Shown here one piece after another: positions 3,222 through 27,220 of a stretch of DNA of 28,941 nucleotides. Origin of the DNA: a virus. Every line of letters begins with the position of its first letter. The stretch's first letter is position 1. The notes below the pieces were generated by a model that was not told the origin of the DNA, ran no database searches, and saw only the letters and a list, made by a program, of their open reading frames with translations. Where the stretch lies: IMG/VR virus record IMGVR_UViG_3300042291_000136, positions 1 to 28,941 of that record; one strand, written 5' to 3'. The translations under genes and the position numbers were made by a program.

Positions 3222-3905
3222 TCAGGCTTCGCTGTTTGAACCAATCTCAGTTGCGATCCAATATTGAATCTGCTTTGCGGTATTTTTGAAACTTGCGATA
3301 CCCTTGAATGAGATAGACACATCGTATGTGCCAGGAATCATTTTCAAGTTTTCTGTTTTGAACAACATGGTATATCGCTTACCGTTTCCGTTACCAACAT
3401 CAAGTTGATTTGTATGGGCGGAGGTGTTCTTGTTGTCCAATGCATGTATAAAGATTTTTGATCCATCAGACTTGACAGCAACGTGTGGCGTGGCAAGACG
3501 ACCAGATGCTTTTACAATGTGTTCCAAATCTTCCTGTGACAACTGAAATGATACATCAGGTGCAGGCATAGTAACGCCTTTTTCTGGTGCATTCTTGATG
3601 TTGCTTGCATCACAAATGCGATACACTGTTTTGCTCCGACCAGATGCTGCTGAGACAACAACAGACTTGGTAGATTCATCAAACTCAAGTTGAGAATTCT
3701 CACCCTCAAGATCAAGTGCTGACAAGAAACGATTCAAGTCAAAGATGCCAAAATCGTTGGGAATGCTTTCACCGATTGTAGTCTCAGCGAGAACCTGTTT
3801 CTGTGCGTCACAGGTACGCAAAACATTTCCTTGACGAAAGACAATTCCATCATTGATGTTTGCAAAATTCTTCAAAATACTCAGTGTGTCTTTAGATAGC
3901 TTCAT
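3222..3905 (-). CDS. 45: DNA polymerase sliding clamp (gp45-like)
   Basis: Starting at the ATG at 3905 gives 227 aa, matching T4 gp45 (228 aa). The open frame extends 17 codons further upstream but overlaps the preceding gene, while a GGAG ribosome site lies just before 3905, so the shorter start is chosen. The sequence begins MKLSKDTLSILKNFANINDGI, as in gp45 proteins. Conserved stretches are FGIFDLNRFLSALDL and RYTMLFKTENLKMIPGTYDVSI. gp45 forms the trimeric ring that tethers the polymerase and, with gp33/gp55, activates late transcription. A sigma70-type promoter lies just upstream (3928-3956), so 45-44-62-regA probably forms an early operon. Confidence 0.93.
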   Translation of the reverse strand: MKLSKDTLSILKNFANINDGIVFRQGNVLRTCDAQKQVLAETTIGESIPNDFGIFDLNRFLSALDLEGENSQLEFDESTKSVVVSAASGRSKTVYRICDASNIKNAPEKGVTMPAPDVSFQLSQEDLEHIVKASGRLATPHVAVKSDGSKIFIHALDNKNTSAHTNQLDVGNGNGKRYTMLFKTENLKMIPGTYDVSISFKGIASFKNTAKQIQYWIATEIGSNSEA

Positions 3906-3927
3906 AATATACTCCAATAAAAAATCA

Positions 3928-3956
3928 ATTGTACAACATTCATTCTGCTTTGTCAA
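3928..3956 (-). promoter_or_regulatory. Sigma70-type early promoter for the 45-44-62-regA operon
   Basis: On the minus strand a perfect TTGACA (3956-3951) is followed by 17 bases and TACAAT (3933-3928, one mismatch). An 8-bp palindrome TTGTACAA overlaps the -10 box. It lies within the 3' end of the preceding gene and gives a leader of roughly 16-18 nt before the ATG of 45. Confidence 0.65.
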
Positions 3957-4302
3957 CAGAATATTTCACATCATGCTCATACAGAAAATATAAGCAACAT
4001 GAAGCATGTGCAAGGTGATGAATACCAGATTCTGGATCCAACTTTTCACCTTGTTTCCAAGCCCACAGATGACGTTGCATGGCGGCAAAGTATCTGCGTT
4101 TAGATTCGGGTACTTTTTGCCAGTTGTCTGGCTCATACTTCTGTGCGCCGAACGTCAGAACCTTTACCATTTCCTCTAATGCTAATGGCGGTATCAAATC
4201 GTAACGCAACTTATCGCCATCAAATTTACGACCAGGTGTCGGTCCTGGTGTTGAATCAGTTACACTCACATGGACAATTTCATCATCAGTAAAATTAGGC
4301 AT
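3940..4302 (-). CDS. dATP/dGTP diphosphohydrolase-like protein (MazG-like)
   Basis: The motif GRKFDGDKLRYDLIPPLAL (residues about 25-43), then VLTFGAQKYEPDNWQKV, and YFAAMQRHLWAWKQGEKLDPESG followed by HHLAHASCCLYFLYEH are characteristic of the 'dATP/dGTP diphosphohydrolase N-terminal' family common in phages. These all-helical MazG-like proteins are thought to hydrolyse dNTPs to dNMPs. The Asp, Glu and His residues visible here fit metal binding. In phages this may adjust nucleotide pools or remove modified dNTPs. The start is taken as the ATG at 4302, which overlaps the upstream stop (TGATG); a GTG three bases earlier is possible. It sits between a glycosyltransferase and the sliding clamp. 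Confidence 0.72.
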   Translation of the reverse strand: MPNFTDDEIVHVSVTDSTPGPTPGRKFDGDKLRYDLIPPLALEEMVKVLTFGAQKYEPDNWQKVPESKRRYFAAMQRHLWAWKQGEKLDPESGIHHLAHASCCLYFLYEHDVKYSVDKAE

Positions 4303-5117
4303 CACAGTCTTCCAGTTAGCTCGGCGATCTTGGCCATATTACCAGTGAATGGATATGTACCGATGTGTTGTGTTTTCATCCATGGGCATAGGAAGATTTT
4401 ACCACCAATTTTGCGCCACAGTTGACAGAACATGTAGTCCTCAGACAGATACCGATCAGAACCACCACCAGTTGCACTATCTTTAGTATCAATGATTGTA
4501 TCAAAGTATGCATGAATGTAACGTGAGCCATCAAAGTTGGCTTGCCCAACGTGATCGGGCTTGTAACGCAATTGTGGAAATGCGACTTCTAGTTTCGGGA
4601 ATACTTCACGCTTGATCATCATGTAGCCTGTGCCAATTTCCATGACTTCAAGTGGCTCAGTGACTGAGAATTGTTGAGTGCCTTTGACAACGTTGAAAAC
4701 ATAATCACCCACAAGTGCTTCCAACTCATGTGGAGGCAATTCAGGATGCTTCCGTGCGGCCAGTGCAACGTTTGACCAGTTGATTGATTTCTTTGGATAT
4801 GGTCCACCGATAACATCTTTATCTAGTGCCAACATAGCAATTACATCCTGTGGGCTGTAATGTATGTCAGAATCAATGAATAGCATATGCGTACAATCGG
4901 AACGCAAAAATTCATCGACCAAGTAATTTCGTGCGCGAGTGATTAGCGACTCATTGAATAGGAAGGAGAATCGTGTTTCAACTCCATATTTGGACATGAG
5001 TCCCTGTAAATCTAAACTCGCTTTGATATACATGCCATGGGCCATGCCTCCATACATCGGAGTGGCAATGAACAGTTTGTTCTTTTTCAATTCTTCAATT
5101 TTGACTTTGATTTCCAT
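4302..5117 (-). CDS. GT-A-fold glycosyltransferase-like protein
   Basis: This 271-aa protein begins with a short charged stretch and then LFIATPMYGGMAHGMYIKAS, a typical Rossmann-like nucleotide-sugar entry. Further on are NESLITRARNYLVDEFLRSD, HMLFIDSDIHY with a DxD-type metal site (residues about 95-105), PYPKKSINW, and a late acidic motif, YLSEDYMFCQLWRKIGGKIF. This layout fits phage GT-A transferases of the family 2/Anp1-like type. The substrate cannot be read from sequence; phage DNA bases, host envelope sugars or a virion protein are all possible. A strong hairpin in front (5134-5164) separates it from the winged-helix gene. The leader TTTATTTATGGAAACATT before the ATG lacks a strong ribosome site. 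Confidence 0.72.
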   Translation of the reverse strand: MEIKVKIEELKKNKLFIATPMYGGMAHGMYIKASLDLQGLMSKYGVETRFSFLFNESLITRARNYLVDEFLRSDCTHMLFIDSDIHYSPQDVIAMLALDKDVIGGPYPKKSINWSNVALAARKHPELPPHELEALVGDYVFNVVKGTQQFSVTEPLEVMEIGTGYMMIKREVFPKLEVAFPQLRYKPDHVGQANFDGSRYIHAYFDTIIDTKDSATGGGSDRYLSEDYMFCQLWRKIGGKIFLCPWMKTQHIGTYPFTGNMAKIAELTGRL

Positions 5118-5125
5118 AATGTTTC

Positions 5126-5164
5126 CATAAATAAAGGGAGTGATACAGTATATATCACTCCCTT
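5126..5164 (-). terminator. Rho-independent terminator after the winged-helix gene
   Basis: A perfect 12-bp stem (5134-5145 with 5153-5164) closes a 7-base loop. On the minus strand it is followed by a T-rich run, TTTATTT. It lies 20 bp after the stop of the winged-helix gene and just before the glycosyltransferase start. Confidence 0.75.
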
Positions 5165-5184
5165 GATCAGATTTTGTTGATCAA

Positions 5185-5448
5185 TCAGGCAAAAGTGGCA
5201 ACACGCTTTGTTTTTGTTTGAGTGGCCAACATGCGCTTAGTTGGCTTACCCAAACGATAGAAACTGATCTTGCGACCATCTTCCAGAGTTTTGGTGTTGG
5301 TGTAGATAGCATGACCTTCTTTGCGCAACTCATTGATCCGTGCGGCGACATTGGCAACACCAAATCGTACACGGGCTTGTGCGGTAGTAAAGGTATTGTA
5401 TCCTTCGGTTTTGCTCAGAGCAAGCAACATTTTCTGTTTTACGTTCAT
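5185..5448 (-). CDS. Winged-helix DNA-binding protein (87 aa)
   Basis: The N-terminal part MNVKQKMLLALSKTEGYNTFTT, the recognition-helix-like region ARVRFGVANVAARINELRKEGHAI, and the wing YTNTKTLEDGRKISFYRLG give a compact winged helix-turn-helix. Similar small HTH proteins are common in phages, where a helix with 'RINELRKxG' precedes the wing. The tail (PTKRMLATQTKTKRVATF) is basic and may add DNA contacts. It probably represses or activates phage genes. It is transcribed alone, between a hairpin-rich upstream region and a strong terminator. The leader TTTTATTATGGAGTTCTT before ATG resembles those of 45 and the CobS-like gene. The inverted repeats overlapping nearby early promoters are candidate binding sites, but none is demonstrated. 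Confidence 0.72.
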   Translation of the reverse strand: MNVKQKMLLALSKTEGYNTFTTAQARVRFGVANVAARINELRKEGHAIYTNTKTLEDGRKISFYRLGKPTKRMLATQTKTKRVATFA

Positions 5449-5564: not shown

Positions 5565-6749
5565 TTAGAAAGGAATTTCCTCATCAGCGGGAATTGGTAC
5601 CGATTTAGGAACAGCTTGTTCATCCGCTGGCAATTTGGCTTTTGTAGCCTCAACATCCAGTTTAGTGTACAGATCAAGGAAGGATGTTTTGGTATCAATA
5701 TCAAAACGATTCAGACACAAGCCAACAGCCTTCAAACGATCACCATGCACACCATAAGTTTTGCAGATGTGCACCAGACGGCGAGTGGAGATAATTTCGT
5801 CCACACCACCTTCAGCAAAGGTCTTCCGTGTGATATCAGCCCAAGTCACCAACAAGTCGGCGAATTCATTATCTTCACGACCGAATGCAGCCATTTCCTT
5901 ACGCACAATTTTCTTTTCAACTGCGGTAGGTGGATATTCTTGTTCATACGTATTTAAGAAACGCTCAAGGAAGGCTTCGTTCAAAACGTTGGTGAACATA
6001 TAGCGACCATCATCGGAGCCTTTACCTTTTGTGTTAGCCGTAGCAACAACGGTAAAGCCTTCAGCGGGTGCAACCAATTCATTCTTCTTTTTCAGCAAGA
6101 ATGGTTTGCCTTCCAGAACACGTTGGAGACAAGCCAAATTCTGTGCACCATAATCGATTTCGTCAATACACAATACAGCGCCTTGGCGGGCTGCTACAGT
6201 AACAGGACCATCACGCCATTCCATCTGACCATTGATCAGTACATAGTTACCAAGCAAGTCGCCTTCATCGGTATCAGGTGTCATTGACACACAGATAAAT
6301 TTACGACCAAGTTTGGCACAAGCCTGTTCAACAGACATGGTCTTACCGTTACCAGATTGACCAGTGATAAAGATGGGAAAGAATTGGTTGCTTTTGAAGA
6401 TGGAAACCAAGTCATCAAAATTACCGAACGGAACATAATTCTTGTACTTTTGTGGCACAAGATTCTCAGTTTCCAATTGAGTCACAAGATTGGAAATTCG
6501 TGGTGCATCAACCACTTCTTTTTTAGTATCAGTCTTTTTCATAGGAAGAACATTTTGCACCAATGCAGTGGGCAATTTATACATGCCACGTCCTGCACGA
6601 TTGGCTAGGTCTTTGAGGAACCATTGAGGTTCCTTGATATCATTTTCGGCACACAGGTTTTTGACTTCCTGCAGTGTCATAAACTCTTTACCAGTTGCGC
6701 TGGCAATGGCAATAAACTTCTCACGCTTGTCCATCTGAATGGTACGCAT
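5565..6749 (-). CDS. cobS: CobS/MoxR-like AAA+ ATPase
   Basis: This 394-aa protein has an N-terminal helical/winged-helix-like region (residues 1-65) and a AAA+ core. Walker A is TGQSGNGKT (129-137). Next come MTPDTDEGDLLGNY (the MoxR/CobS 'pre-sensor' region) and Walker B AVLCIDEIDY (191-200). Sensor 1 is in VVATANTKGKGSDDGRYMFTN, followed by an FLERFLNTYEQEYP arginine-finger region. It closely resembles the 'CobS' genes of T4-like cyanophages. Real CobS drives cobalt insertion with CobN and CobT, but no CobN is visible here. The gene follows a VWA/metallopeptidase gene, the pairing expected for MoxR-VWA chaperone systems. It has its own sigma70-type promoter. Cobalt chelation is therefore doubtful; protein remodelling is a better inference. 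Confidence 0.85.
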   Translation of the reverse strand: MRTIQMDKREKFIAIASATGKEFMTLQEVKNLCAENDIKEPQWFLKDLANRAGRGMYKLPTALVQNVLPMKKTDTKKEVVDAPRISNLVTQLETENLVPQKYKNYVPFGNFDDLVSIFKSNQFFPIFITGQSGNGKTMSVEQACAKLGRKFICVSMTPDTDEGDLLGNYVLINGQMEWRDGPVTVAARQGAVLCIDEIDYGAQNLACLQRVLEGKPFLLKKKNELVAPAEGFTVVATANTKGKGSDDGRYMFTNVLNEAFLERFLNTYEQEYPPTAVEKKIVRKEMAAFGREDNEFADLLVTWADITRKTFAEGGVDEIISTRRLVHICKTYGVHGDRLKAVGLCLNRFDIDTKTSFLDLYTKLDVEATKAKLPADEQAVPKSVPIPADEEIPF

Positions 6750-6784
6750 AATATAAACTCCAAATCAATCAAATCAATAAACTA

Positions 6785-6823
6785 ATTATACAAGGAACAT
6801 ACCACATAGTCAAGTGGTATGTT
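6785..6823 (-). promoter_or_regulatory. Sigma70-type promoter with overlapping 10-bp inverted repeat (CobS-like gene)
   Basis: On the minus strand TTGACT (6813-6808) is followed by 17 bases and a perfect TATAAT (6790-6785). A perfect inverted repeat, AACATACCAC (6796-6805) and GTGGTATGTT (6814-6823), brackets the -35 box. No T-run follows on the minus strand, so an operator is more likely than a terminator. Confidence 0.68.
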
Positions 6824-6830
6824 GTAAAAA

Positions 6831-9128
6831 TCATACAGCGATTTCTGTAATGAATCGGTTCACAAGAACGCGGCTGACTTGCTTCTTTTTATTCATCTTG
6901 ATAAATGCATTCTTTAGTTTGCTTGCTGTGAAGTTACCAGAAATTTCCAGTTCACCATCATCGGCTTGCAGGTCAGCATCACCAGGAATAAAGAAAAACT
7001 TATTGTATCCAAGATTGAAGGATTCCACAAACCGTTCTTCCTTCAAATCCTCAGTAAGTTTTTTAGCCACGTCTTGGCGTCTGTGGTAGCCACCATCACG
7101 ATCAGGATATTTCTCATACAAGTTTTGACCTGTAGAGTCTGTGTATCGGCGAGACAAGTTAGACCGTGCTGAGGCACCAGTACCAGCAATATAGAAACCA
7201 ATGATTTTGGCACCAGTTGCATTGCGATACCAATCAAAAATTACACTGCGCAAGGAAGTATCGTAATTGCCATAAGGAGACAACTTCTGGAACTTAGTTT
7301 TAGTGTCAACCAAAACATAGTTTTTACTACCGAAATAATTGTGCATTATGTTGCTACCACTATTTACATAATGATGTGAAATTTCATCAGCATCACCATC
7401 ATGAATCAAAGCAAGGTTCACAATATCAAGATTGTTGACTCTGCGAAATTGCTCAGTCAAAGGCTTCAATGCAACCATTGCCTCCATCATCGGCGTTGCA
7501 GACAATGGCTCACTCAAAGGAACACTAAAATTAGGTGGATCTGGCCAATTCTTTTTAGTATATGCATCAGCCAATGTAACCATGTTGCGAACACAGTTAT
7601 TGAATTCAACATTACCCATACGTGAATTCAAATATTCACGCAAGAACACATGAGAGAATCCCAACTCATTTTCGCCACGGGTAAATGAGTCTTTTGCGTG
7701 ACGACCATGGTCTTTTCTGAATCCATCTGTCTCATTACCAAAACCATAAACCACAAAAGGAATACTGACTTTGCGGCAGAACATAACAAGAATCAAAATC
7801 TGTTCAATAGCAGCCGCCATTTGGCTCTTCATTGAACCAGAACGATCAAGCACCAGAATCAAACCATGTGATTTACCTTTCGGCACACGGTTCATTTTCT
7901 TGAAGATGTTATCATCAATTTGGTATTTGTAGATGCGATTCACATCAATGTCACCAGTATTGGACACTTTGGTCTTGGAAAACTTTTCTGCGGCTTTACG
8001 CATTTCAAATTCTTTGGCCAACAGACTGATATAACGGTCATTGTTGTTTTTGAATTCTTTGACCAATGCATCTTGTTCGGCGCGCTTATTTGGGCTCCAA
8101 AACTCTTGCATTTGTTTATGCACAATGGATGCTGGTGTCAGAATCTCAGACATGATCGGAGTAGGAACATTCAGATAAGAATAGTCTTTAGACTTTTCAT
8201 CCAAAAGTTTGTACTCATTTTCACGATAGGCTTCATCCGTTTCGCAAGTTGGCTCAAAGTCATCTTCACCAGCAACAGATTTTGTTGGCTTGAAACGATT
8301 GATTTCATTGCCAGATTTTGTGTCTTCGGATTTTTTATCAGACTTTTTGGCATCAGTATCTGACTTTTTATTGCCAGGCTTTTGCTCACCGTCTTCGGAA
8401 GATTCCTCAGTCTCTTTACCTGGACCATTGCCGGTTGATTCATCAGATTCATCGGACTGATCCGAATCACCAAAGTCGTCAGACTCAGACTCAGAGAATT
8501 CATCATCATCCATGTCCATATCAGACTGCATGGATGGAAGTTTGTTTTGTTTTTGTTGCTCTTGCTTAGAGTAATCAAAAATTGCACCAGTGATTTCTAC
8601 AACATCATCCCAAGTCTCAGCGGCTTCAACTTTGCTAACAAACACGGACTCTTCATCCGTAAATTTGACGCCAGTTGAAATACCACCTTTGGTATATACG
8701 TTCAGGCGGTCAATGAATGGGAAGGTATTGATATCACGATCACCGAGACCGAAAAAGTCACGGGACAACAATTCGCCATATGCTTTGACGAATGAATTAC
8801 GGAGACCAGGGAAGCGGCGCTTGATTTTCTTTTCAATGCGGGCATCTTCAACCACATTCAGGAAATGCTTAAAGTTGCGGCTGATTTTTTTATCTTTGCT
8901 TGTTACGGCATTGTGCCAACCTTCTTCAGGTGTTTCCAATGCGTGACCAACTTCATGACCCAGCAACAGGTCATAAAGTTCACCAGACATATCTGTCCAG
9001 ATAGGGCAGTAAAGTGTGCGATTCTTCAAGTCAAAAGCCGCAGTTTGCATCTTGCGGTGTTCAACTCGGATGTTTTCAGTAGCCATCAACTTGGCTAACT
9101 GTGACTTGGATTCTTGGGAAAAATTCAT
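6831..9128 (-). CDS. CobT-like protein with N-terminal zincin motif and C-terminal VWA domain
   Basis: This 765-aa protein has three parts. Residues 1-185 contain LLLGHEVGHALE (HExxH at 58-62), and 35 residues later NVVEDARIEKKIK, a plausible third-ligand Glu, as in gluzincin-type metallopeptidases. Residues about 186-290 form a low-complexity acidic Ser/Asp/Lys linker like that of CobT. Residues about 415-765 form a von Willebrand A domain with an intact MIDAS motif, DRSGSMKS (428-435). In MoxR-VWA systems the VWA protein binds the AAA+ partner, here the next gene downstream. A protease or chaperone that remodels host or virion complexes is the best inference; a chelatase subunit is the alternative. 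A sigma70-type promoter inside an inverted repeat lies just upstream. The ribosome site (GAAAG) is weak. Confidence 0.78.
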   Translation of the reverse strand: MNFSQESKSQLAKLMATENIRVEHRKMQTAAFDLKNRTLYCPIWTDMSGELYDLLLGHEVGHALETPEEGWHNAVTSKDKKISRNFKHFLNVVEDARIEKKIKRRFPGLRNSFVKAYGELLSRDFFGLGDRDINTFPFIDRLNVYTKGGISTGVKFTDEESVFVSKVEAAETWDDVVEITGAIFDYSKQEQQKQNKLPSMQSDMDMDDDEFSESESDDFGDSDQSDESDESTGNGPGKETEESSEDGEQKPGNKKSDTDAKKSDKKSEDTKSGNEINRFKPTKSVAGEDDFEPTCETDEAYRENEYKLLDEKSKDYSYLNVPTPIMSEILTPASIVHKQMQEFWSPNKRAEQDALVKEFKNNNDRYISLLAKEFEMRKAAEKFSKTKVSNTGDIDVNRIYKYQIDDNIFKKMNRVPKGKSHGLILVLDRSGSMKSQMAAAIEQILILVMFCRKVSIPFVVYGFGNETDGFRKDHGRHAKDSFTRGENELGFSHVFLREYLNSRMGNVEFNNCVRNMVTLADAYTKKNWPDPPNFSVPLSEPLSATPMMEAMVALKPLTEQFRRVNNLDIVNLALIHDGDADEISHHYVNSGSNIMHNYFGSKNYVLVDTKTKFQKLSPYGNYDTSLRSVIFDWYRNATGAKIIGFYIAGTGASARSNLSRRYTDSTGQNLYEKYPDRDGGYHRRQDVAKKLTEDLKEERFVESFNLGYNKFFFIPGDADLQADDGELEISGNFTASKLKNAFIKMNKKKQVSRVLVNRFITEIAV

Positions 9129-9181
9129 GACATTCTTTCTATCAACAGGATCAATTATATCAGGTGCAGAAAGAATGTCAA
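9128..9181 (-). promoter_or_regulatory. Consensus sigma70 promoter framed by a 13-bp perfect inverted repeat
   Basis: On the minus strand TTGACA (9181-9176) and TATAAT (9159-9154) are both perfect and are 16 bases apart. TGACATTCTTTCT (9128-9140) and its exact reverse complement (9168-9180) flank the region, 27 bp apart. One arm covers the -35 box and the other covers the ribosome site up to the ATG. Only the proximal arm would be in the mRNA, so this looks like a two-site DNA operator rather than an RNA hairpin. Confidence 0.7.
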
Positions 9182-9218: not shown

Positions 9219-10124
9219 TCATGGCTTCCAATTGCGAGTCAGTTTCATTCCGTACTCATTATTACCTTCTGGAAGTACCACACCAGGCTTGAATCTCAGT
9301 TCATTCTTTTTGAATGGATTGTAGTCAACATAATGGTGCCACCTACCATAACGCCAAACAACTCGCGCAACATCAGGATGCATTTCTTCCAACATCTTTG
9401 ATTTGTTGATTGTACCGCTACTGTTGTAGCCAGTCTTTTTGAAATTTTCATCCTCATCAGCAAATTCTTTGTGATAGAATTCTTCGGTGTTTCCACCCTT
9501 GACTGTTTGTGTAGCGGCTTTGCCTTGCAAAAATGCATTGAATTGAATTGTACAGTCACCATCTTTCAGTACACGCAGGCAGATATCAGTGTCTTCATTG
9601 TAACGACCTCGCCAGCGATGCTTGCAGTCATTTGAAATCAACAGGCACGAATAGATTCGGGTGTTCGTCACATATGGTGGATATTTAGAGTTTGGTGCAA
9701 TAAAGAAGCGGTATTGAAAGCCTGAGATTGGCACGTTCTCATAACGATCAACAAAGTCCTCAGCAGCCTTAAAGATTGCACCGGACTCAACACGATACCG
9801 TTTGTTTTGTTGCAAGCGATAGAAGTCTGTGATGTTGTCATCAAGAACCCAATGCTTTTCAGCGCCGATTGAAATCGCATGATCCCAGCACCAGTTTCTT
9901 GCACGACCTGGACCATCACCGTGATTGCTGAATGGTGCGATCAACAGTGTCACATATGGACGAATACCAAATTCATCAAGTGCTTTTTCGTAGTTGACTT
10001 CATCTTGTGGCTCAATAGCGATGTAATGAGGAATCTTCATTCTAGCCAAAGACCTAGAGGTCAGCATGGACTCATGGCGACCTTTAGAGATAATGTAAAC
10101 AGGATGTTTTGGGTTGATGGTCAT
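9219..10124 (-). CDS. Glycosyltransferase resembling TET-associated glycosyltransferases (DNA hypermodification type)
   Basis: The start is taken as the ATG at 10124, overlapping the upstream stop (ATGA); a TTG at 10136 would add four residues. Recognisable blocks are HPVYIISKGRHESMLTSRSL at the N-terminus, GPGRARNWCWDHAISIGAEK with HWVLDDNI (DxD-like metal site), and RIYSCLLISND. Later blocks are GRYNEDTDICLRVLKDGDC, GKAATQTVKGGN and YGRWHHYVDY. This order is what I recall for the TAGT family, GT-A transferases that add sugars to oxidised 5-methylcytosine in phage DNA. No TET/JBP dioxygenase or cytosine methyltransferase is in this window, so the modified base is unknown. It follows an HWKGMP-motif protein in a tight operon. 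Another GT-A substrate remains possible. Confidence 0.7.
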   Translation of the reverse strand: MTINPKHPVYIISKGRHESMLTSRSLARMKIPHYIAIEPQDEVNYEKALDEFGIRPYVTLLIAPFSNHGDGPGRARNWCWDHAISIGAEKHWVLDDNITDFYRLQQNKRYRVESGAIFKAAEDFVDRYENVPISGFQYRFFIAPNSKYPPYVTNTRIYSCLLISNDCKHRWRGRYNEDTDICLRVLKDGDCTIQFNAFLQGKAATQTVKGGNTEEFYHKEFADEDENFKKTGYNSSGTINKSKMLEEMHPDVARVVWRYGRWHHYVDYNPFKKNELRFKPGVVLPEGNNEYGMKLTRNWKP

Positions 10125-10483
10125 TCTACAATCCAACGATTCAATGAGTTATCTTCAATTTCTAGTTTAGGATACCAGATGCTTTTTGTTTTGTCTGTGA
10201 GTTTCTGGTCAACAAGTTTTGCAAATTCATTGTAGTCTTCCTCACTACGAAAGCTCAAATAGATTTGTCTCCAAGGAGGGTTATCATTCTGGTCATATGT
10301 TGGCATGCCTTTCCAGTGCTTCTTCCAAATCTGGTCACGGGTCAGCAAAGAATCGTCTGGTTCAGCGATCAAATTTTCTTCTATGCCACCATCAATGAAT
10401 TTTGTTACATCGGCATAATCATCAGCTTGAAAGTCTAGGCAACTTTCATATTCAGTTGTTTCTTCAACTTTTATATCTGTCAT
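10121..10483 (-). CDS. HWKGMP-motif protein of unknown function (120 aa)
   Basis: The first 45 residues are acidic and probably disordered. The C-terminal part carries IWKKHWKGMPTYDQND, then WRQIYLSFRSEEDYNEFAKLV, and ends TDKTKSIWYPKLE. I recall the same 'HW.GMP / I.V.F.SEEDY..FA / TKSIWYP' pattern in short proteins or domains of phages and mobile elements near DNA-modification and ParB-like genes, but I cannot name a function. It overlaps the deformylase stop and the glycosyltransferase start by 4 bp each (ATGA), so the three are almost certainly co-translated. A role in binding DNA or supporting the adjacent glycosyltransferase is speculation. Confidence 0.65.
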   Translation of the reverse strand: MTDIKVEETTEYESCLDFQADDYADVTKFIDGGIEENLIAEPDDSLLTRDQIWKKHWKGMPTYDQNDNPPWRQIYLSFRSEEDYNEFAKLVDQKLTDKTKSIWYPKLEIEDNSLNRWIVE

Positions 10484-11055
10484 TTGTTTCTCCGAACGTG
10501 TTTCTTGATTACCTTAGCTTGGCGCTTCCTGGCTAGCTGCATTGCTACAGGTTTGACATGCTGAGTATACACTACACCGTTCATGTGGTCAAGCTCATGC
10601 TGGTAAACTTGTGCAGTGAGTCCATCAAAATGTGTACTAACTAAGTTTGCATTTTCATCATAATATTCAACATCAATGCTTCCATATCTAGGAACGTTCA
10701 AATACAGACCTGGAAATGATAAACATCCTTCAGCTTTACGAATTGTTTCACCATGTGTGGCAACAATTTTTGGATTGAAGCACACGATGCCATCACCGAT
10801 CACGAACATCCTAAAGCCGATGCCGACTTGATTTGCAGACAAGCCAAGACCATTGTATGCAGCCTGCGTCTTTCGCATTTGACGAATAAATTTTTGTATC
10901 TCAGGCTGCATGATCTGAGTGATGTGGAACTCAGGCATGACTTGCGACAACTTAGAATGTCCTTCAGCTAAAATAGGTAGTATTGAAATAACTTCCTCAA
11001 CGATCTTTGTCGGTGAGTTTGTATTGATCGTTAGAATATCGTCATCATTCATCAT
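10480..11055 (-). CDS. def: Peptide deformylase
   Basis: This 191-aa protein has all three deformylase motifs: GLGLSANQVG (69-78), EGCLSFPG (109-116) and QHELDHMNG (152-160). The Cys in motif II and the two His of HELDH are the metal ligands, and the Glu is the catalytic base, so the enzyme should be active. It removes the formyl group from the first methionine of new proteins. Phage deformylases are known from marine cyanophages, where turnover of photosystem proteins has been proposed. No photosynthesis gene is visible here, so a general boost to maturation of abundant virion proteins is an alternative. An N-terminal extension of about 45 residues precedes the core. The start overlaps the end of the small upstream gene. 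Confidence 0.92.
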   Translation of the reverse strand: MMNDDDILTINTNSPTKIVEEVISILPILAEGHSKLSQVMPEFHITQIMQPEIQKFIRQMRKTQAAYNGLGLSANQVGIGFRMFVIGDGIVCFNPKIVATHGETIRKAEGCLSFPGLYLNVPRYGSIDVEYYDENANLVSTHFDGLTAQVYQHELDHMNGVVYTQHVKPVAMQLARKRQAKVIKKHVRRNK

Positions 11056-15830: not shown

Positions 15831-16702
15831 CTCCTTTCGTAATTTTATCCGGCTTCATTTTGTTTCCTTTTATTTTTTCTAGACTCTAACATATTGTTTC
15901 TCCAAACAGGATCATTCCACTTTTCCTTCAGTGCGCTTCCATCTGATCCTCGTGGTTTTCGGGTTTTCATTTTGTCGCGAAAGTTTGGATCATTTTTCCA
16001 CTTTTCTTTTATTTTCTCACTAGCAGCTTTTCTCTTGTTTTCATCACCATTTACTTCACTCATTTTTGACTTAAATTTTTGTAAAAAAGCCTCATCCTCA
16101 TAGCGTTTTTTGGTTCCAATAACCTGTTTATGTGCACCATGTGTTATGTAGTGGTTTACCATTTGTTCAGATTTACTTCGCTTTTTGTCTTCTGTCCAAT
16201 ATTCCATCATCGCAGTTTTTCTTTTTTTCACAGATTCATCTGTGTGGGACAACCTATTTTGATTGACATAAGACCAACCTCCTTTTCCTCCAGAATTTAG
16301 ATTATATGACATTTCATCATCCGGAGAAATCAAACTATTTTCAACATCATTCATCTGAGACTCATCCTCACATAACTGAATAATTTGTTTTTCAAAATTT
16401 TCAATTCCATACTTAGCTATGGCTTTTCTTATGAGTGTTCCTGAACCCATGTAATTGTCGTTAGGATTTTCTGTAATATGTTTACCTATGTAAAATCTGC
16501 CGTTTATTTTGTTTATTATCCTATATATCGTGTAGTATTTCATATTGACTCCAGTAGACTACTTTTTATTATTTAGTATCCAACGGGCATCAATATCATC
16601 AGTTTCAGTAATATATTTTGCTTTTTTTGTTGTGCCGTCTGTCAGCGGTATCAATTCGTTTTCCGAACATTTGATTTTAGTGTCACCAAACTCAAAAAGT
16701 AG
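15826..16702 (-). mobile_element. Endonuclease-carrying insertion inside uvsW
   Basis: The 7-bp sequence AGGTGAA occurs at 16703-16709 (end of the native N-terminal part) and at 15826-15832 (start of the C-terminal part), in the same helicase frame. Removing one copy plus the sequence between would join PLEGE directly to GCIIIASFG, as expected for intact UvsW. The 877-bp insert holds 49 codons fused to the N-terminal fragment and a GIY-YIG endonuclease gene. There is little non-coding space, so a group I intron core is unlikely. Confidence 0.7.
15845..16543 (-). CDS. GIY-YIG homing endonuclease inside uvsW
   Basis: The N-terminal catalytic domain has YTIYRIINKINGRFYIGKH (GIY and YIG equivalents), then NYMGSGTLIRKAIAKYG, and a metal-ligand Glu in MNDVENSLI. 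The C-terminal half is lysine-rich, with repeated short helices such as SKMSEVNGDENKRKAASEKIKEKW and SALKEKWNDPVWRNNM. These are NUMOD3-like DNA-binding modules continuing to the stop codon. The size (232 aa) fits T4 Seg/Mob-like enzymes. The ATG lies 15 bp after the uvsW N-terminal stop with TGGAG as ribosome site. The AT-rich, Lys-rich coding differs from uvsW itself, which fits recent acquisition. It probably cuts intact uvsW alleles. Confidence 0.87.
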   Translation of the reverse strand: MKYYTIYRIINKINGRFYIGKHITENPNDNYMGSGTLIRKAIAKYGIENFEKQIIQLCEDESQMNDVENSLISPDDEMSYNLNSGGKGGWSYVNQNRLSHTDESVKKRKTAMMEYWTEDKKRSKSEQMVNHYITHGAHKQVIGTKKRYEDEAFLQKFKSKMSEVNGDENKRKAASEKIKEKWKNDPNFRDKMKTRKPRGSDGSALKEKWNDPVWRNNMLESRKNKRKQNEAG

Positions 16703-18892: not shown

Positions 18893-18900
18893 TATTTATA
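18893..18900 (-). promoter_or_regulatory. Late promoter box TATAAATA
   Basis: A perfect box on the minus strand overlaps the stop codon of the HNH gene. The next ATG (18887) begins 6 bp further on, so the expected transcript start lies at or near the start codon itself. Confidence 0.6.
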
Positions 18901-19447
18901 CAATCTTTTTACATGTCCAGCCTTTGATGTGACTTCTGGACATATTGCCTTGATCAAATCCATTCTCCCTACAAAACTTAGTCAAGTTAGTTACTTCAAA
19001 TGATACACCCTCTGGATTGGTCATTTGATATTTCTTCTGTCTGGTCTCAGCAACTCTTTGTTTTTGATATTCAGTATTCTTTTTACCCCAACGCCTTGTT
19101 TTTTGAACATGTTCTGGTGTAAGTTTTTTGCCTTTTTTGGCTAAACTCATTTTTTGTTTAGATTCTTCTGAGTATTTGAAAGTCTTCCTGAATGCACTGA
19201 TCTTTTCTCCGAAACCATCCGGCTTCTTGACTCCTTTCTGCGACATAGCGATCTGTCTTAGAATTTCGTCTTTTCCTATTTGACCAGTTAGTCCTAGCCA
19301 AGCCCAGCGATCCTCATCTCTGCCGTTTGTCTCATACAATATTCTATGAGCTTCCGCATGTTCCTCTATTGTCAACTCTATCAAATTTGATGGATCATCT
19401 GAGCCACCGGCATGCCTTGGTACTATATGGTGTTTATGTTTTATCAT
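18896..19447 (-). CDS. HNH homing endonuclease
   Basis: The N-terminus holds the compact HNH motif KHKHHIVPRHAGGSDDPSNL, followed by IELTIEEHAEAHRILYE, with His and Asn residues in the expected order. The middle contains NUMOD3-like repeats (YSEESKQKMSLAKKGKKLTP, EHVQKTRRWGKKN). The C-terminus has a helix-turn-helix-like module (SFEVTNLTKFCRENGFDQGN, then MSRSHIKGW). This is a typical phage free-standing homing endonuclease of 183 aa. It lies between the capsid gene and the gene 3 position, after the capsid terminator, and has its own late promoter box 33 bp upstream. The ribosome site is poor. Its end supplies the late box for the next gene. Confidence 0.88.
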   Translation of the reverse strand: MIKHKHHIVPRHAGGSDDPSNLIELTIEEHAEAHRILYETNGRDEDRWAWLGLTGQIGKDEILRQIAMSQKGVKKPDGFGEKISAFRKTFKYSEESKQKMSLAKKGKKLTPEHVQKTRRWGKKNTEYQKQRVAETRQKKYQMTNPEGVSFEVTNLTKFCRENGFDQGNMSRSHIKGWTCKKIV

Positions 19448-26674: not shown

Positions 26675-27220
26675 TTAGACTACTAGGTCCTCTACTGCTT
26701 CCCACCATTGATAGGTCAAGTTCACAGTAAATTCTTCAATAGTATCGTTAGAACCCCAATCAACATCAATTGCTGATAGGTCTGTTGGAAATAATCCAAC
26801 AAATTTGTACTTCTTGATCACATCACCAGCTTTGCTGTATTGACGAACTTCACCATCAGTGCTATAACCCAGTGCAGTTGCTGCGGCTGGATTACGGATG
26901 TTGGTTGCATGTCCATTGATACCGTTCATCCAACGCTCAAAGGCGTTACGGATTATAAAGTCTTCATCATTGATGATTGTGATAGACCAATCTTGGAAGG
27001 TTCTGTTACCAGCAAACTTCAATTCACGACCAAAATATTGGACAGGAACCGAGTTAACTGTAGAGCCTGGCAGTTGAGCAGTCTTACACATGAAGCTCGT
27101 TTTTTGTTGTGCGTTTCCTGGCAAAGCGAATGCTGGAAATGGTAGCGTAACCTCAAATAAATTTGGGCGGGCTCCATCTCCCTGCATTTGAGAGCGGAAT
27201 TCGTTGATGTTAAATGCCAT
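26675..27220 (-). CDS. 19: Tail tube protein gp19
   Basis: This 181-aa protein (T4 gp19 is 163 aa) directly follows the sheath gene, the universal order in T4-like phages. Typical segments are MAFNINEFRSQMQGDGARPN with LFEVTLPFP, CKTAQLPGSTVNSVPVQYFG, RTFQDWSITIINDEDFIIRN with AFERWMNGI, and SAIDVDWGSNDTIEEFTVNL with TYQWWE. It forms the rigid inner tube through which DNA passes. It has a late promoter box, a TAGGAG ribosome site and an immediate terminator, so it can be made in large amounts independently of its neighbours. Confidence 0.95.
   Translation of the reverse strand: MAFNINEFRSQMQGDGARPNLFEVTLPFPAFALPGNAQQKTSFMCKTAQLPGSTVNSVPVQYFGRELKFAGNRTFQDWSITIINDEDFIIRNAFERWMNGINGHATNIRNPAAATALGYSTDGEVRQYSKAGDVIKKYKFVGLFPTDLSAIDVDWGSNDTIEEFTVNLTYQWWEAVEDLVV

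Follow-up and report, generated by a model that had tools for sequence, protein, structure and literature searches.

A CobS-like ATPase and a zincin-VWA protein of a T4-like phage probably form an early-expressed remodelling machine with its own peptidase domain

Introduction

The IMG/VR virus record IMGVR_UViG_3300042291_000136 gave a stretch of 28,941 bp (hereafter the window), a fragment rather than a complete phage genome, in which a CobS-like AAA+ ATPase is encoded beside a 765-amino-acid protein combining a zincin motif with a VWA domain. What does such a pair do? Two published views of it conflict, one seeing a metallopeptidase-chaperone and the other a mis-annotated CobT. Iyer et al. 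(2021; PMC7824862) described a pair of MoxR and metallopeptidase-vWA proteins in group 2.2 jumbo phages and proposed that it functions in virion assembly. Liu et al. (2021; PMC8651126) regarded the cyanophage partner as a cobT 'mistakenly annotated as a peptidase' and suggested hijacking of the host CobN. T4-like cyanophages share cobS as a core gene, which serves as a marker of myo-cyanophage communities and has been listed under 'Vitamin B12 synthesis'. If the two proteins work as a protease motor, this metabolic reading is wrong.

We conclude that the pair is probably a MoxR/VWA remodelling machine that is expressed early and includes a zinc peptidase domain. That HExxH is invariant in the phage proteins but lost in CobT offers, together with the early promoters, a direct way to decide between the two published views, and the analysis also suggests an origin of the CobT N-terminal domain. 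The pair itself is not new: Iyer et al. described it, the cyanophage genes have long carried annotations, and the window holds a divergent member of an established family already described in outline. What is new here is the test separating the pair from the cobaltochelatase, the recognition of the CobT N-terminal domain as a putative degenerate zincin, and the conserved early promoters.

The window encodes RegA, the gp44 clamp loader, the gp45 clamp and SbcCD-like gp46/47, and also head genes (including a gp21-type protease and the portal) and the tail sheath. The source is an uncultured T4-like phage, and its pair a familiar but misnamed one ('cobalt chelatase' plus 'peptidase').

Conservation and predicted folds of the pair

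Both genes lie on the minus strand, the ATPase gene 81 nt downstream of the partner gene. The two proteins have the following features; conservation refers to non-redundant sets of 79 partner sequences from T4-like phage members and 43 ATPases, and pLDDT is the predicted local distance difference test score.

6831–9128, minus strand: zincin-VWA protein, 765 amino acids (PHROG 459 'peptidase', E = 3e-175)
8544–9128, minus strand: N-terminal gluzincin-like domain (N-domain), residues 1–195, from the AlphaFold model and Foldseek minigluzincin matches
8943–8957, minus strand: HEVGH, residues 58–62, proposed zinc/catalytic helix (H58, E59 and H62 invariant in 79/79; model helix 49–65)
8832–8849, minus strand: EDARIE, residues 94–99, E94 being the proposed third ligand, plus D95 and R97 (invariant in 79/79; helix 84–105)
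8259–8543, minus strand: acidic disordered linker, residues ~196–290 (D/E-rich in the family; pLDDT <50 at 198–287)
7866–7994, minus strand: pre-VWA segment, residues 379–421, proposed AAA+ pore 'finger' (conserved beside strand beta1)
6834–7868, minus strand: VWA domain, residues 421–765 (best Foldseek match in PDB, the NorD VWA domain)
7833–7847, minus strand: DRSGS, residues 428–432, of the metal ion-dependent adhesion site (MIDAS), completed by T545 (7494–7496) and D577 (7398–7400); five residues invariant in 79/79
5565–6749, minus strand: CobS-like, MoxR-clade AAA+ ATPase, 394 amino acids (PHROG 249 'porphyrin biosynthesis', E = 5e-101; AAA_5, 3.8e-21)
6339–6362, minus strand: Walker A GQSGNGKT, residues 130–137 (invariant among relatives)

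We observed that H58, E59, H62, N91, E94, D95 and R97 in the N-domain, and D428, S430, S432, T545 and D577 of the MIDAS, are 100% invariant. Since this holds in 79/79 sequences while only 32 of the 765 alignment columns are invariant (the metal-site residues being 10 of those 32), the zincin and MIDAS motifs are not there by chance. The linker keeps its character and not its sequence (family median 84 amino acids, 38% D/E), and the pre-VWA segment carries a 'G.ld..r' pattern common to the partner and CobT-type proteins.

The AAA_5/AAA_3 core of the ATPase is complete, with Walker A, Walker B (ending in CIDE, last residue 197), sensor 1, arginine finger and sensor 2. Walker A and B, sensor 1 (N239), the arginine finger (R263) and R323/R324 never vary among the 43 ATPases. 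Its relatives in PDB are midasin, CbbQ, CobS and NorQ. An earlier, sequence-only reading of the locus had pointed to an ATPase with intact Walker motifs beside a protein with HEVGH, EDARIE, an acidic linker and an intact MIDAS; both open reading frames and all these motifs are present at the positions listed, and the conservation described above bears the description out.

Next, we considered the predicted folds. The N-domain, modelled alone from an alignment of 73 diverse sequences, gave a confident AlphaFold model (pLDDT 88; predicted template modelling score 0.82) with three strands, in which HEVGH and EDARIE lie on the two helices given above. Its top eleven PDB matches in Foldseek were all proteins of the HExxH metallopeptidase fold (E 0.09–1, probability up to 0.97), namely the minigluzincins selecase, jannalysin and abylysin, which matched best, and ArdC, PprI and BlaR1. 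The full-length model was moderate (pLDDT 73), and its best PDB match was the VWA domain of NorD, from the complex with NorQ (E 1e-4). Searches of PDB by sequence, with either the partner alone or its profile as query, found no related entry. The models predict a zincin-like N-domain and a NorD-like VWA domain. The sequence-only reading had proposed structure prediction as a check, and the model, which resembles HExxH metallopeptidases, did not contradict its zincin assignment.

We consider it rather likely that the partner works as a protease and is coupled to the ATPase. Alternatively, the pair might be a pure remodelling or metal-insertion chaperone of the NorQD kind, with a zincin fold that would bind metal or peptide but not cut. 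NorD and CobT function without a protease, and Pseudomonas phage nickie keeps the AAA+ partner beside a CobT-like protein (3358–5442) that has lost HExxH, so in some pairs the N-domain does something other than catalysis. In the T4-like members, however, the catalytic E59 is invariant along with the ligands (79/79), and a domain that only binds need not keep a general base; for the window pair, we regard this alternative as improbable.

Relationship to the cobaltochelatase

A second alternative is that the pair works as a genuine CobST motor and relies on the CobN of the host for cobalamin synthesis, as suggested by Liu et al. (2021) and implied by the common auxiliary-metabolic-gene annotation. 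Indeed, the PDB relatives of the ATPase include CobS, the partner is distantly homologous to CobT through intermediates, and CobN-family proteins are present in a Prochlorococcus single-cell genome in which a relative was found. Against the TIGR01650 CobS equivalog model, however, the ATPase scored 66.9 bits, below the cut-off of 558.55, and neither the window partner nor three relatives matched the Pfam CobT models (PF06213/PF11775).

We observed that HExxH is absent from 30/30 alphaproteobacterial CobT proteins, whose genomes hold CobN-family proteins in 28 of 30 cases, whereas it is invariant in the phage partners (79/79); a chelatase function would leave this invariance unexplained. Similar pairs or partners also occur in Klebsiella and Escherichia plasmid-like records and in phages of Pelagibacter and Vibrio cholerae. 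These hosts are not known to encode CobN.

No CobN (PF02514) was found in the 28,941-bp window or in 16 related viral records of 50–178 kb; a CobN of the host is left possible. Given the 16/16 negative records, we infer that the gene is absent from the whole phage. The sequence-only reading had likewise seen no CobN, had named a cobN homologue elsewhere in the genome, with vitamin B12 genes, as a finding that would speak against it, and had questioned the label 'cobalt chelatase'; the scores and searches above sustain these doubts. On this evidence, we consider a CobST function very unlikely.

The phage partner and CobT are nevertheless distantly related. Through HExxH-bearing intermediates, the CobT N-domain aligns to the zincin core ('RGHADSIALKLACHD...FEAVEQARVEA' versus 'LGHEVGHALETP...LNVVEDARIEK'), the key stretch being 'GHADxxAL' in CobT and 'GHEVGHAL' in the phage. 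HExxH-bearing proteins that match the CobT model include a Klebsiella phage protein (81 bits) and bacterial ones. The relationship rests on these intermediates because the direct profile–profile comparison of the phage and CobT N-domains is weak (16.6 versus 6.3 for the reversed control, P 0.003). Matches of hidden Markov models within the acidic linker were disregarded as compositional. The alignments are evidence for a degenerate zincin in the CobT N-domain and for this distant relationship of CobT to the phage partner. As the phage protein invariantly keeps an active site that CobT lacks, the sequences favour the annotation 'peptidase' over 'cobalt chelatase'.

We also noted CobT without detectable CobN in Caulobacter vibrioides (the control genome) and in two other genomes of uncertain completeness; therefore, cellular CobST may also act beyond cobalt insertion.

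Promoters and genomic location

Each gene of the pair is preceded by a sigma-70 promoter, the second of which lies in the 81-nt gap.

9154–9181, minus strand: promoter of the zincin-VWA gene, TTGACA-16-TATAAT, 12/12 matches, TG before the −10 element
6785–6813, minus strand: promoter of the CobS-like gene, TTGACT-17-TATAAT, 11/12 matches

These are the best two promoters among the 31 genes of the window. In relatives, a promoter of at least 10/12 precedes the partner gene in 55/75 cases, versus 3.2% of shuffled sequence, and the ATPase gene in 46/60, versus 4.6%. Promoter recurrence is 65–73% for the pair genes and 0–44% for neighbouring genes. No late motif lies in the 60 nt preceding any of 141 pair genes. 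In the window, the late motif TATAAATA precedes gp22 and a homing endonuclease gene, and a variant, AATAAATA, precedes the gene at 26675–27220; as the count across the window is not above chance (7 versus 5.4 expected), only the positions of the motif were used, as weak support. The conserved sigma-70 promoters are evidence for early expression by the host RNA polymerase. No infection-time expression data for cobS were found in the openly available papers that were searched.

The location of the pair agrees in kind. It sits between gp46/47 and gp45/44/62/regA in the window phage, in HTVC008M, in P-SSM2 and in many contigs. Pairs of other lineages are also near replication genes, in nickie (DNA ligase, DNA polymerase III, primase) and in ICP2 (primase, DNA polymerase). 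In HTVC008M, a gene for ribosomal protein S21 lies beside cobS, and a midasin-like ribosome role was considered; it was dropped, as S21 is not a recurrent neighbour in the cluster analysis.

These data bear on the proposal of Iyer et al. (2021) that the pair acts in virion assembly, where it would remodel structural proteins and the metallopeptidase would process them as a maturation protease. The proposal was published for the same architecture and has a precedent in ATV p618/p892, which act in tail development (PMC7824862). Nevertheless, the phage already has a gp21-type prohead protease among its head genes, the pair is located among replication genes and not among head or tail genes, and it has sigma-70 promoters and lacks the late motif. 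Fourteen virion proteins have been detected in S-CREM1; those given in the text belong to the baseplate, capsid and tail or have no known function, and the MoxR ATPase is not listed. Promoters and synteny thus appear to weaken the assembly role without excluding assembly, and we hold it to be unlikely, although the strongest of the alternatives.

As sigma-70 promoters are conserved and late promoters lacking, an early, probably host-directed action is favoured. Together, the apparent early expression and the position in the replication cluster make a target in the host or at the replication stage more likely than a role in virion assembly. The sequence-only reading had left the choice between a host and a virion complex open; its MoxR AAA+/VWA pairing stands, while the choice now tilts to the host. 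That the pair acts early on a host target, we consider an even bet.

Distribution of the pair

The partner matches 463 public phage records, nearly all of T4-like cyanophages and pelagiphages, and the ATPase matches 541. The two proteins have equal record counts for Synechococcus (365), Cyanophage (61) and Prochlorococcus (24), besides pelagiphages and a few others. Against named phages, identity is ~30–35% for the partner and ~44–59% for the ATPase (AAA core, at most about 59%).

Order and strand of the pair are identical in 166/166 metagenomic viral loci that hold both genes, a count that treats related loci as separate; in 14 loci, the ATPase is missing at a contig edge. The gene order establishes that the ATPase and the zincin-VWA protein are partners. 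A scan of genomes for cellular relatives gave 12 loci, from metagenome bins and one single cell, which are probably phage contigs.

A relative of the CobT-like partner is also encoded on plasmid-like records of ~110 kb from Klebsiella, Escherichia, Acinetobacter and others; 969 plasmid records match in all. These relatives are named 'porphyrin biosynthesis protein' or CobT, and HEVGH is intact in the Klebsiella phage copy.

Comparison with known systems and a proposed mechanism

Among the closest known systems is the cobS plus 'peptidase' pair of T4-like cyanophages and pelagiphages (T4-GC 150/146; PHROG 249/459), which has the same PHROGs, gene order and location between gp46 and gp45; the window pair is a member, though a divergent one (ATPase at most ~59% identical over the AAA core, partner ~35%). 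The jumbo-phage pair of Iyer et al. likewise has a MoxR AAA+ protein beside a VWA protein that starts with a metallopeptidase domain; that paper covers jumbo phages and does not mention CobS/CobT, and its proteins (ASV44729/ASV44728) were compared by description only. CobS/CobT shares the AAA+/VWA pairing and the linker, and its CobT N-domain is a putative distant, degenerate zincin relative; it differs in that CobT lacks HExxH, while the phage lacks CobN and its pair falls below the CobS cut-off and outside the CobT Pfam models. NorQ/NorD has the MoxR ring, the VWA partner, the flexible linker and the MIDAS, and its VWA domain is the best structural match, but a zincin motif is undescribed for the NorD N-domain and the target is nitric oxide reductase. 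Bacterial DUF2201 proteins (PF13203) resemble the partner in an HExxH metallopeptidase-like domain, a VWA-like MIDAS and an adjacent MoxR ATPase; they are shorter (~400–440 amino acids) and have HEALH. DUF2201 was rejected as an N-domain homologue: the window protein has no PF13203 match, and the profiles have no detectable similarity. ATV p618/p892 is also a viral MoxR/VWA chaperone pair, but it has no peptidase domain according to Iyer et al. (2021; PMC7824862) and serves the tail development of an archaeal virus.

In the NorQD structures (PMC13036017, PMC9976466), a finger of the VWA protein is inserted in the MoxR pore, the MIDAS probably binds the target and ATP-driven rotation stretches the linker. 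Because the phage partner has the same order of N-domain, disordered linker, conserved pre-VWA segment and VWA domain, we infer a similar ring-and-finger engine. On this analogy, the CobS-like ATPase would assemble into a hexameric ring, whose pore would be plugged by the segment preceding the VWA domain. The MIDAS would grip a carboxylate on the target protein or complex, which would then be strained through ATP-driven twisting of the ring. Finally, the zincin domain, having bound zinc, would cut the exposed segment from its flexible acidic tether. The target would be a host complex or a replication-stage factor. In its fullest form, this reading describes a zinc protease that is gated by ATP, is produced as infection begins and dismantles a specific host complex, and from such a machine CobT would descend by loss of the active site. 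The gene long taken as a 'B12 auxiliary metabolic gene' marker in cyanophages would then belong to a protease motor for host takeover. We offer this fuller form tentatively, as conceivable but somewhat doubtful.

Several observations weigh against an early-acting peptidase machine. The Foldseek E-values of the N-domain (0.09–1) are individually not significant, though the list is consistent. The promoters are weaker in HTVC008M and P-SSM2 (8–9 of 12). T4 chaperones of morphogenesis can be expressed early: gp31, an assembly chaperone needed for the head, is the product of an early gene, so early promoters are compatible with a virion role. Finally, 19 further loci have the zincin-VWA gene with no adjacent ATPase. 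Among the 12 of these records that were searched, one of 87 kb carries the ATPase at a distance of ~18 kb, and the remaining viral records are fragments; strict adjacency is usual, not universal.

Neighbouring genes

Immediately upstream of the pair, a TET-associated glycosyltransferase (PF20691) is encoded at 9219–10136 (minus strand), which suggests modified DNA bases. A second glycosyltransferase, Anp1-like, lies at 4302–5117 and recurs in 38/81 loci. A peptide deformylase gene occupies 10480–11055 (minus strand), and its family is upstream of the pair in 37/81 loci. At 3940–4305 (minus strand), we found a protein with a dATP/dGTP diphosphohydrolase N-terminal domain (PF18909), possibly a nucleotide-pool enzyme. 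Two homing-endonuclease genes are located at 15845–16543 and 18896–19447 (both minus strand), the latter adjoining the major capsid gene.

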